Source of the DNA: Allorhizobium pseudoryzae
GTDB lineage: Bacteria; Pseudomonadota; Alphaproteobacteria; Rhizobiales; Rhizobiaceae
DNA: 64,000 nt
NCBI RefSeq assembly: GCF_011046245.1
Contig: NZ_CP049241.1
Location: 186,001 to 250,000, forward strand
Direction of reading: 5' to 3'
Shown piece by piece: positions 54,612 to 57,299 of this stretch. How positions within the stretch are numbered: the first letter of the stretch is position 1; each line of letters starts with the position of its first letter. Under the pieces are notes generated by a model. The model was not told the origin of the DNA and did no database searches. It saw only the letters and a program-made list of their open reading frames with translations. The position numbers and the translations under genes were made by a program.

Positions 54612-55175
54612 ATGACGACCAGAGATTTGGTGCTTGCCGCCCTCTTCACTGCCATCATCATCGTGCTGGGCCTCATCCCGCCGGTCACGCTTGGCTTCAT
54701 CCCGGTACCGATCACCGCCCAGTCGATGGGCGTCATGCTGGCGGGCACCATTATCGGCGCCCGGCGCGGCGCGCTTGCCTATGGCCTGCTGGTGCTTCTG
54801 GTGGCGATCGGACTGCCGGTGCTTTCCGGCGGCCGCGGCGGCCTCGGCATCCTGATGGGCCCGACCGCCGGTTACATCGCCGGCTGGATCATCGGCGCCT
54901 TCGTGGTGGGGATGATTGCCGAACGGTTCGTACGTGAGGGCCAGTCGACCGTTCGCCAGATGGCCGGTTTCTTCATCGCCAGCGTCATCGGCGGCATCGT
55001 GGTGGTCTATGCGATCGGCATGCCCGTCGTTTCGCTGATCGCCGGCACGCCCTTTTCCAAGGTGATCATGGGTTCGCTCGCCTTCCTGCCGGGCGACCTG
55101 CTGAAGGCCGCGATTGCAACGCTGGCCGCGCGCGCGGTGATGGTGGGCTACCCGCTTCTGCCGCAGAAGGCCTAA
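54612..55175 (+). CDS. bioY: Biotin transporter substrate-binding subunit BioY
   Basis: 187 residues, six spans, with the BioY signature: GFIPVPITAQSMGVMLAGTIIGARRGALAYGLLVLLVAIGLPVLSGGRGGLGILMGPTAGYIAGW. It captures biotin and, with BioMN, imports it. A GAGGA site precedes ATG at 54612. A strong terminator follows, so the borosin genes downstream are a separate unit. Confidence 0.95.
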   Translation: MTTRDLVLAALFTAIIIVLGLIPPVTLGFIPVPITAQSMGVMLAGTIIGARRGALAYGLLVLLVAIGLPVLSGGRGGLGILMGPTAGYIAGWIIGAFVVGMIAERFVREGQSTVRQMAGFFIASVIGGIVVVYAIGMPVVSLIAGTPFSKVIMGSLAFLPGDLLKAAIATLAARAVMVGYPLLPQKA

Positions 55176-55203
55176 AAGGCAAACATCATCGGCGACGATG
55201 TCA

Positions 55204-55235
55204 GGGGCGTGCGGAGCGATCCGCGCGCCCCTTTT
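55204..55235 (+). terminator. Rho-independent terminator after bioY
   Basis: 12-bp GC-rich stem (55204-55215 with 55220-55231, one G-T pair), loop GCGA, followed by TTTTCTTT. It separates the biotin operon from the borosin locus. Confidence 0.88.
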
Positions 55236-55333: not shown

Positions 55334-55404
55334 CCCGCATAGGTAAGCGACCCCGACAGCAAATGTCCGGGCCTCATCACAGCACTCACAGCGGGAGATT
55401 TCAC

Positions 55405-55632
55405 ATGAGCAGCAAGGAAGTAGCCCGATTCATGGTCGGGATGTCGATGGATGCCGCCGCTCTGCAGCGGTTCCACGCAAACCCGGATGCGGAGCTGAAG
55501 CGCTTCGGCATCTCGGATGCAGCCTCCAAGGTCATCAAAAGCAAGGATGCGCCGGCCATTCATAAGGCGATCAAGGACAATTTCGCCAGTGCCGCCTCCG
55601 ATGTCGTCAACGTCGTCGTCGTCGTTCTCTAA
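55405..55632 (+). CDS. Split-borosin precursor peptide 1 (C-terminal core VVNVVVVVL)
   Basis: 75 residues. Residues ~4-62 form a small helical domain (VARFMVGMSMDAAALQRFHANPDAELKRFGISD..., SKDAPAIHKAI) of the LigA-like type that serves as the borosin-binding leader in split borosins such as Shewanella SonA. The last residues, after AASD, are VVNVVVVVL, an almost pure valine core suited to backbone N-methylation. Precursor 2 shares the plan: RF..NP.A, S.D...I..A, AASD and a VVL end. GGGAG lies seven bases before ATG at 55405. The core is encoded by a run of GTC codons. Leader cleavage and final product are not predictable. The precursor role is inferred from the adjacent methyltransferase. Confidence 0.85.
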   Translation: MSSKEVARFMVGMSMDAAALQRFHANPDAELKRFGISDAASKVIKSKDAPAIHKAIKDNFASAASDVVNVVVVVL

Positions 55633-55667
55633 CGCCGCCTCCAACCGAAACCGGAAAGGGTAAGACC

Positions 55668-55904
55668 ATGCCAGCCATGGATAAACTTCTTGTCGATATT
55701 GCCACCAATGGCGCAACGGCCAAGCGGTTCCGGGACAATCCGGCCGCCGTGATTGCCGCCGCCAATCTCTCTGCCGTCGAGGAATCCGTGCTTCTGTCGC
55801 GCGATCCGAAGATGATCCAGTCGGCGCTGCATTCGGCGGCACTGAAGAACAGCCTGAAGGCCGCGAGCGACGACACGGTCTGGACCGTGATCGTGGTGCT
55901 TTAG
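55668..55904 (+). CDS. Split-borosin precursor peptide 2 (C-terminal core TVWTVIVVL)
   Basis: 78 residues with the same architecture as precursor 1: a helical leader (KLLVDIATNGATAKRFRDNPAAVIAAANLSAVEESVLLSRDPKMIQSALHS) and a hydrophobic tail after AASDD, TVWTVIVVL. The Trp followed by Val/Ile recalls the omphalotin core WVIVVGVIGVIG made by the fungal borosin OphMA. The two precursors have diverged throughout the leader yet keep matched spacing from RF..NP to the C-terminus, so they are paralogues, not a recent duplication. It starts 35 bp after precursor 1 and is followed by a hairpin at 55911-55938 before the methyltransferase gene. Confidence 0.85.
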   Translation: MPAMDKLLVDIATNGATAKRFRDNPAAVIAAANLSAVEESVLLSRDPKMIQSALHSAALKNSLKAASDDTVWTVIVVL

Positions 55905-55910
55905 ACGGGC

Positions 55911-55938
55911 GCGGCATCCGTCTCATCCCGGATGCCGC
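55911..55938 (+). other. Perfect 10-bp hairpin between precursor 2 and the methyltransferase gene
   Basis: GCGGCATCCG (55911-55920) pairs exactly with CGGATGCCGC (55929-55938) around an eight-base loop. There is no T-run, so full termination is unlikely. It could protect the 3' end of a precursor mRNA or lower read-through, keeping precursors in excess of the enzyme. Confidence 0.65.
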
Positions 55939-55991
55939 CCCGCGCGCCGCAGTCATCTGCCACCGAACAGGTCATCAACGGAGGAATGGGT

Positions 55992-56885
55992 ATGACCCTG
56001 ATGGAACAGACAAGGCCCGCCACATCGCCCGAAGGCGTGTCCGCCGCCGCATCGTCTCAAGGTTTTCTGGCCGTGGTCGGCGTCGGCATCAAGCTTGCGG
56101 CGCAGACGAGCCTGGAGGCCAAGGCCCAGATCGAGGCCGCCGACCGCGTTTTTTATCTGGTGACCGATCCCGGCACCGAATACTGGCTGCAGACGCTCAA
56201 CCCCACATCGGAATCGCTGCAGCCCTTTTATGACGGGCGCGACAGCCGGCTGACCACCTATCTCGACATCACCGACTATCTGCTCGACCATGTCCGGCAG
56301 GGCCTGCATGTCTGTGCCGTCTTTTACGGCCATCCGGGCATTTTCGTGTTTCCCTCGCACCGGGCGGTGGCGCGGGCCCGCAGCGAGGGTTTCCAGGCCG
56401 TCATGCTGCCCGGCATTTCGGCGGAGGACTGCCTGTTTGCCGATCTCGGCATCGATCCGGCCCGCAAGGGCTGCCAGACTTTCGAGGCGACCGACTTCCT
56501 GATCTTCCACCGCACCTTTGATCCGCGCAATGCGCTGGTTCTCTGGCAGGTCGGCGTTCTCGGTGAAGTCGGCTACAAGATCTCGCTGTCGCCGCAGAAG
56601 CTCGCCGTTCTGGTCGAGAGGCTTCTGGAGGCCTATCCGCCCGATCATCCGGTGGTGGTCTACGAGGCGGCACGCTATCCGGTCTGTGATCCGCTGATCA
56701 TCCGCACCACCCTCGCCGGGCTCGATGTCAGCATGATCAGCTCGATCACGACGCTCTACATTCCGCCGCTTTCCCAACGCAAGCCGGATCTCGAGGTCGC
56801 AGCGCGGCTCGGCATCCCGGCGGATTTCATTAAACGCCGCTTCGAGATGAGCGACGAAGAGATCGAACGCCTCGGCCTCGACTGA
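55992..56885 (+). CDS. Borosin peptide alpha-N-methyltransferase (split, OphMA/SonM-type)
   Basis: 297 residues, tetrapyrrole-methylase fold. SAM/substrate motifs: VVGVGI (28-33), YGHPGIFVFPS (112-122), LPGISAEDCLFADLGIDP (139-156), GCQTFEATDFL (160-170). Tyr80, Arg86, Tyr90 and Tyr112 fall at the same mutual spacing as OphMA Tyr66, Arg72, Tyr76 and Tyr98, residues implicated in backbone amide methylation. No core peptide is fused at the C-terminus (it ends EEIERLGLD), so the substrate must be supplied in trans, by the two precursors upstream. ATG at 55992 is chosen because GGAGG lies seven bases before it; ATG at 55986 is too close. Porphyrin or corrin methylation is unlikely given these motifs and neighbours. 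Confidence 0.9.
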   Translation: MTLMEQTRPATSPEGVSAAASSQGFLAVVGVGIKLAAQTSLEAKAQIEAADRVFYLVTDPGTEYWLQTLNPTSESLQPFYDGRDSRLTTYLDITDYLLDHVRQGLHVCAVFYGHPGIFVFPSHRAVARARSEGFQAVMLPGISAEDCLFADLGIDPARKGCQTFEATDFLIFHRTFDPRNALVLWQVGVLGEVGYKISLSPQKLAVLVERLLEAYPPDHPVVVYEAARYPVCDPLIIRTTLAGLDVSMISSITTLYIPPLSQRKPDLEVAARLGIPADFIKRRFEMSDEEIERLGLD

Positions 56886-56906: not shown

Positions 56907-57299
56907 TTACTCCAGATACTGGTAAAGCCAGTCGCGCAATTCCTCCGGCAGCGGCACCGGTTCGCCGCTGTCGGGATTGCAGGCGCTCCAGACGATCTCG
57001 GCCTCTGCCACCAGGTCCTCGCCGCGAACCATCAGGACGGCAAAACCCGCCGTCCTGCCGCCGATCTTGCTGGCGCGCACGGATGTCTTCACCTCATCAC
57101 CGAAATGCAGCGCCTTGTGCAACTGGCAGCTGACCTTGGAGACACAGAAGGCCGGATCGGAGGGCTGCGGCGCACGCGCTGCCCAGAACTGGCCGAGCGC
57201 CTCTTCCGCATAGGCCAGATAGGCGGAAGAATGCATTTCGCCCCGCATGCCGACATCCCGGAACGGTACGCTGAACACGTAAGGATTCGCCTGGCTCAC
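56907..57299 (-). CDS. Acyl-CoA thioesterase, 4HBT hotdog family
   Basis: 130 residues of the hotdog fold: FSVPFRDVGMRGEMHSSAYLAYAEEALGQFW carries the helix with the conserved Asp/Glu region, then VSKVSCQLHKALHFGDEVKTSVRASKIGGRTAGFAVLM. It resembles YbgC/FcbC-like thioesterases that hydrolyse short or aromatic acyl-CoAs. Start is GTG at 57299. It converges on the borosin methyltransferase gene with a 21-bp gap. I see no reason to place it in the borosin pathway. Confidence 0.87.
   Translation of the reverse strand: MSQANPYVFSVPFRDVGMRGEMHSSAYLAYAEEALGQFWAARAPQPSDPAFCVSKVSCQLHKALHFGDEVKTSVRASKIGGRTAGFAVLMVRGEDLVAEAEIVWSACNPDSGEPVPLPEELRDWLYQYLE

Follow-up and report, generated by a model that had tools for sequence, protein, structure and literature searches.

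Organisation of the locus

The window analysed here is a stretch of 64,000 nucleotides from Allorhizobium pseudoryzae and lies on contig C1 in a genome of 5.4 Mb. Between positions 55405 and 56885 it carries three co-directional genes on the forward strand, in the order P1, P2 and enzyme, so that the two small proteins and the neighbouring enzyme announced by the original prediction are all present at this place. The precursor genes P1 (55405..55632, 75 amino acids) and P2 (55668..55904, 78 amino acids) are each supported by their open reading frame, by conservation, by profile and model evidence and by a profile match in their own genome. The third gene (55992..56885, 297 amino acids) encodes a stand-alone enzyme assigned to the borosin alpha-N-methyltransferases by Pfam, PDB and alignment evidence. 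The gaps between the genes measure 35 bases (P1 to P2) and 87 bases (P2 to enzyme), and a purine-rich, ribosome-binding-like stretch lies ahead of all three starts; in a mechanical list of open reading frames, P1 and the enzyme start further upstream (at 55363 and 55932), and the shorter versions were adopted here. No protease or exporter gene lies within the cassette, and no further precursor was found in the genome by the precursor profile at E <= 10 besides P1 and P2.

The nearest named related locus is that of Rhizobium wuzhouense (L010). Comparison of the window with this locus gave dN 0.091 and dS 1.18 for P1, dN 0.145 and dS 2.43 (saturated) for P2, and dN 0.165 and dS 1.16 for the enzyme; as dN is well below dS throughout, all three genes are under purifying selection and are thus more than the product of chance.

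The cassette is bordered upstream by bioY (54612..55175, forward strand, PF02632), coding for a BioY-family transporter subunit, and downstream by a 4HBT thioesterase-like gene (56907..57299, reverse strand, PF13279 and PF03061), both of which lie outside it. Behind bioY, an intrinsic-terminator-like hairpin (55203..55232, forward strand) with 13 pairs, a T-rich tail and a z-score of -5.8 would set the cassette apart from the transport genes upstream; two terminator-like sites were found in the region, where 1.7 were expected. A promoter-like site precedes P1 (55301..55329, forward strand, 9 of 12 matches) and is considered weak, since one such site was found where 0.6 were expected. Folding against shuffled sequences further indicated an RNA hairpin without a U-run between P2 and the enzyme gene (55906..55942, forward strand). 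This intergenic stretch has a z-score of -1.7 in the window (12 of 200 shuffles equally good) and of -3.5 in R. wuzhouense (none of 200), and the two hairpins occupy the same position with unlike sequences; such a structure might reduce expression of the enzyme relative to that of the precursors. No known RNA family reaches its gathering score between 52500 and 58800.

Family and active site of the enzyme

The enzyme matches PF00590 with 74 bits, and every one of the 25 distinct PDB sequences found at E <= 1e-3 is a borosin enzyme, with E-values from 2e-67 to 7e-66 for dbOphMA and OphMA, from 9e-62 to 3e-61 for SonM and of 4e-55 for MroMA. Up to E = 1, only four NCBIfam models were matched, namely YabN (50.6 bits, cut-off 525) and the three corrin models CobM (23.7 bits, cut-off 259.65), PRK05991 (21.3 bits, cut-off 391) and CobJ (16.5 bits, cut-off 246.35), all far below their cut-offs. 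The profile comparison of borosin enzymes with corrin and siroheme methylases, which had been put forward as a check, thus comes out on the borosin side. With its 297 residues the protein is too short to hold the clasp and core of OphMA, i.e. it is unfused, in agreement with the stand-alone enzyme of tetrapyrrole-methylase fold that had been described from the sequence.

The same agreement holds for the proposed catalytic set: Tyr80, Arg86, Tyr90 and Tyr112 align with the catalytic residues Tyr66, Arg72, Tyr76 and Tyr98 of OphMA, and Gln186 aligns with Gln172 (taking the PDB chain index as one below the published numbering). The set of four consists of the Tyr/Arg/Tyr of the active site and a Tyr of the SAM site. 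By motif, the four residues correspond to Tyr58, Arg67, Tyr71 and Tyr93 of SonM, a correspondence established via a related enzyme that was aligned with SonM. Tyr63 of OphMA is replaced by Gln77, a position that varies among the relatives. In OphMA, the substitutions Y66F and Q172A lowered methylation, and R72A, Y76F and Y98A left it absent or in traces, according to PMC6108569.

Leaders of the two precursors

P1 and P2 are homologous, with 29% identity in a nearly end-to-end alignment (E 2e-9 in a two-sequence comparison). Both match the LigA family PF07746 below its cut-off (E 0.008 for P1 and 0.034 for P2), and the PDB describes SonA itself as a LigA-domain protein. A joint profile was built from 15 precursors of both types, those of L011 and L070 included; the joint alignment (A3) omits the precursors of L067 and L038. 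The profile matches SonA over roughly positions 2-52 (1.8e-7 to 4.5e-7) and then, weakly, the clasp of MroMA and OphMA (0.03 to 0.8). Taken by itself, the P1-family profile reaches SonA at E 0.005; that of the P2 family reaches it at E 0.09 and ranks an unrelated chain higher (0.04).

AlphaFold predicts five helices followed by a tail with neither helix nor strand for both proteins (pLDDT 75 for P1 and 61, a low confidence, for P2), which bears out the helical leader plan that the two had been said to share. Foldseek places SonA chains at the top of the list for the P2 model and directly after LigAB for the P1 model, with weak best E-values (0.28 and 0.37) and TM-scores of at most 0.79 by target length. 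From the profile match and the helix plan, and with a weak fold match, we conclude that the P1 and P2 leaders, taken together, are borosin-binding domains; for the P2 leader considered singly, this conclusion draws on its homology to P1, its helix plan and its adjacency.

Two nearly fixed tails

Both proteins end in the hydrophobic C-terminal tails that had been noticed in the original prediction, and the average conservation of these tails exceeds that of the leaders. The probable cores, with presumed borders, are DVVNVVVVVL in P1 (residues 66-75, 55600..55629, forward strand) and DTVWTVIVVL in P2 (residues 69-78, 55872..55901, forward strand). Among the P1-type proteins (n=11), the last ten residues are DVVNVVVVVL with few changes, four of them having an extra final Pro, and the mean pairwise identity is 0.91 in the tail (minimum 0.60) against 0.68 in the leader (minimum 0.37). 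The P2-type proteins (n=11) likewise end in DTVWTVIVVL with few changes, with a mean of 0.91 in the tail (minimum 0.60) against 0.70 in the leader (minimum 0.57). Each alignment holds 11 of 12 sequences: the N-terminally short R. wuzhouense P1 record P0129 was left out of the first (A1), and P0142, a P2 homologue that has lost its tail, apparently through a frameshift, was left out of the second (A2). P0131 is only 47% identical to P1 and yet keeps DVVNVVVVVL intact. Between the window and R. wuzhouense, third-position differences occur in several of the Val codons in the P1 tail, so that this tail is no mere copy of a DNA repeat. Judged by these alignments, P1 and P2 constitute two distinct families whose respective tails hardly vary.

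The P1 core had been called Val-only, which is inexact, as VVNVVVVVL contains Asn69 and Leu75, both invariant across the 11 aligned sequences. The proposed resemblance of the P2 tail to omphalotin amounts to a Trp followed by Val/Ile residues and is one of composition only, and no macrocyclase is found among the four nearest neighbours.

Distribution and insertion site

Within the genus of the window (57 genomes) the enzyme was found at E <= 1e-30 in the window's genome only, and at E <= 1e-20 it occurs in 2 of the 394 genomes of the family, the window's own and G330, the latter being the sole carrier among the 63 genomes of its genus. We regard G330 as R. wuzhouense, since its locus (L090) matches L010 in identities and in spacing. 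In R. wuzhouense the same three genes lie in the same order between bioY and the thioesterase gene; the enzyme is 83% identical over residues 24-297, P1 is identical at 65 of 75 residues and P2 at 60 of 78, and the tails read NVVVVVL and VWTVVVVI. At the DNA level, these are the only two twin loci found, P1 and P2 being together in both and the thioesterase-like gene convergent to the cassette in both. For three more pairs of P1 and P2 homologues the longest contigs are equal to the base (1,419,359, 973 and 911 bases), from which each pair would lie on one contig, and this suggests linkage in these cases as well. In a quick FastTree tree, the enzymes closely related to that of the twin cassette group with one another.

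Among the cassette-free bioY loci of relatives (n=24), both neighbours were found in 21; L101, L113 and L114, which had no thioesterase match, were left out. The aligned ends of bioY and the thioesterase gene are 3 to 109 bases apart in 19 of these 21 loci, and in the other two, also from relatives without the cassette, an 806-base gap holds an MqsR/MqsA toxin-antitoxin pair at this junction (L092, 2098-2860; L095, 2104-2854). The empty junctions and the toxin-antitoxin pairs indicate that the cassette is accessory and sits at a place that takes other small inserts. A plasmid origin was considered and rejected, the search having given only four records, with partial matches to the enzyme (11-17% of the query) at 66-71% identity.

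Several precursors beside one enzyme

As a broader comparison, we considered 80 related loci, the best 80 of 161 relatives drawn from 216 stretches, with a profile of precursor open reading frames grown iteratively on these same 80 loci. A precursor-like open reading frame is present in 73 of these best 80 loci. Ten of the 80 have two or more, and eight have them beside one enzyme, L020 and L051 being set apart from the eight by their two enzymes each. The eight are R. wuzhouense together with L018, L059, L060, L064, L068, L081 and L082, which belong to Luteibacter, Dyella and a Rhodanobacteraceae assembly; the largest array is that of Luteibacter sp. dw_328 (L059), where seven precursor-like open reading frames with differing tails follow in a row downstream of one enzyme. 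Several precursors per enzyme is therefore an existing theme, and the idea that the twin arrangement might be unique was rejected on this count of 8 in the best 80 of 161. These Luteibacter, Dyella and Rhodanobacteraceae loci differ from the present cassette in that their open reading frames lie mostly behind the enzyme and their tails are often acidic or polar.

We found no twin-precursor split borosin of this clade in the literature searched; one may have been mentioned before in the two main surveys (Imani 2022, PMC9019853; Lee 2024, PMC11221551) or in Cho 2022, which lie outside that literature.

Comparison with known systems

In those features that can be read from the genes, the cassette conforms to the type IV split borosins as defined in PMC8429565; types V-X are mentioned in PMC11395268 and PMC11285071, and the assignment made here follows the type IV definition alone. 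Like the type IV system SonM/SonA of Shewanella oneidensis, as described in PMC8429565, it has a separate enzyme and precursors of about 75 amino acids, with a five-helix borosin-binding leader (here predicted), a C-terminal core and the four active-site residues. Unlike SonM/SonA, it has two dissimilar precursors ahead of the enzyme, tails that are Val-rich, one of them with Trp, and an enzyme with about 22 more N-terminal and about 20 more C-terminal residues beyond the part aligned with SonM. What goes beyond SonM/SonA is that one enzyme is accompanied by two dissimilar tails, each conserved in its own right.

The OphMA family (fused, omphalotin, PMC6108569) provides the highest-scoring solved relatives of the enzyme, and its active-site set is kept except for Tyr63; unlike in OphMA, the core is separate from the enzyme, and no prolyl-oligopeptidase macrocyclase is encoded among the four nearest neighbours (ABC, CbiQ and BioY transport genes and the thioesterase). 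As in the two-peptide RiPPs roseocin and thuricin CD, two different precursors occur in one system, and in the window and R. wuzhouense these have separately conserved cores and are kept together; roseocin and thuricin CD differ in their chemistry and are known two-component antibiotics, whereas a joint action of the present peptides is putative.

Interpretation and alternative explanations

The family of the enzyme, its catalytic set, the SonA-like leader profile and the five predicted helices lead us to read positions 55405-56885 as a SonM/SonA-type split borosin cassette. It is highly probable that SonA-like leaders are here combined with an enzyme of the OphMA/SonM family that would methylate both tails, and the split-borosin reading of the original prediction was largely right in view of the 25 borosin PDB matches and of the leader profile that finds SonA. 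By analogy with SonM/SonA, the enzyme would likely bind each leader, and its dimer would hold two precursors; the backbone amides of each hydrophobic tail would then be methylated one after another from the N- to the C-terminal side, with SAM as the methyl donor for the amides of Val, Ile and Leu. The leaders could be removed by a protease encoded elsewhere than in the cassette, which would free two short N-methylated peptides. Because the tails are separately conserved and the genes are together in both loci, both peptides would seem to be real products that possibly act as a pair, and the likely output of the cassette is two hydrophobic methylated peptides and not one.

How the two peptides relate to each other can be understood in more than one way, within the split borosin reading. 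We lean slightly towards considering the precursors as ordinary gene-dosage or diversification copies that yield independent peptides, an explanation compatible with a split borosin and opposed only to the two-component reading given below; it fits the multi-precursor loci among the best 80 of 161, with up to seven open reading frames in Luteibacter sp. dw_328, and the Mesorhizobium erdmanii relative (L011), in which one precursor was found, with the P1-like tail DTTVVVVVL. However, P1 and P2 are only 29% identical and each tail is nearly fixed, which free diversification would not give. A two-component borosin, in which one enzyme dimer loads two unlike leaders and complementary N-methylated tails act together, is a tentative and rather less probable reading; a Val-rich strand and a Trp-bearing strand might then pair, e.g. 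in a membrane, as a backbone-methylated two-peptide RiPP.

It is improbable that just one of the pair serves as substrate and that the other is an enzyme-binding regulator or an unmethylated partner. The isolated SonA leader inhibits SonM with a Ki of 3.9 uM (PMC8429565), so that a leader-bearing protein could compete; against this role, each tail is hydrophobic, conserved and placed at the C-terminus, and in both genes dN is far lower than dS. That the enzyme belongs to the corrin, siroheme or YabN-type methylases and has unrelated small genes beside it, as its tetrapyrrole-methylase superfamily (PF00590) and the 'precorrin methylase' or YabN-like names given to relatives by some sources might suggest, was rejected with near certainty, since the four models score 16-51 bits against cut-offs of 246-525, the PDB matches are borosin enzymes in 25 of 25 cases, the precursor profile matches SonA, and a further seven PF00590 matches occur in the genome. 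Of these, five lie within 7 kb of each other, and they presumably serve corrin synthesis.

As of 2021, no type IV split borosin pathway had been tied to a final natural product according to PMC8429565. The split borosin cassette considered here is small, its two tails are almost invariant, its insertion point is clean and empty sites are at hand for comparison, which makes it tractable for finding the product and purpose of such a system. It is also a natural test of one enzyme handling two leaders and supplies two hydrophobic, Val-rich candidate substrates for backbone N-methylation.

Possible fused forms and tandem forms among the relatives

In more distant loci (L116-L121), covered to about 1.5 kb on either side of the enzyme, the search found no twin precursors, and L118 has one weak precursor candidate (E 0.002). 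Three of them from distant alphaproteobacteria, with frames of 454-573 amino acids, have a match to the precursor profile inside the enzyme's own frame (L116, E 0.043; L119, E 0.0013; L120, E 1.9e-6), which suggests that they may be fused forms.

Fourteen homologues of the enzyme are 457-520 amino acids long (P0007, P0009, P0014, P0015, P0017, P0020-P0026, P0028 and P0029), and the five that were compared singly (P0007, P0009, P0014, P0015 and P0029) contain two enzyme domains in tandem. In the C-terminal halves, cut at residue 255, the equivalent of Arg86 is lost in 13 of the 14 and that of Tyr90 in all 14, a pattern suggesting that these long proteins may join an active half to an inactive one.
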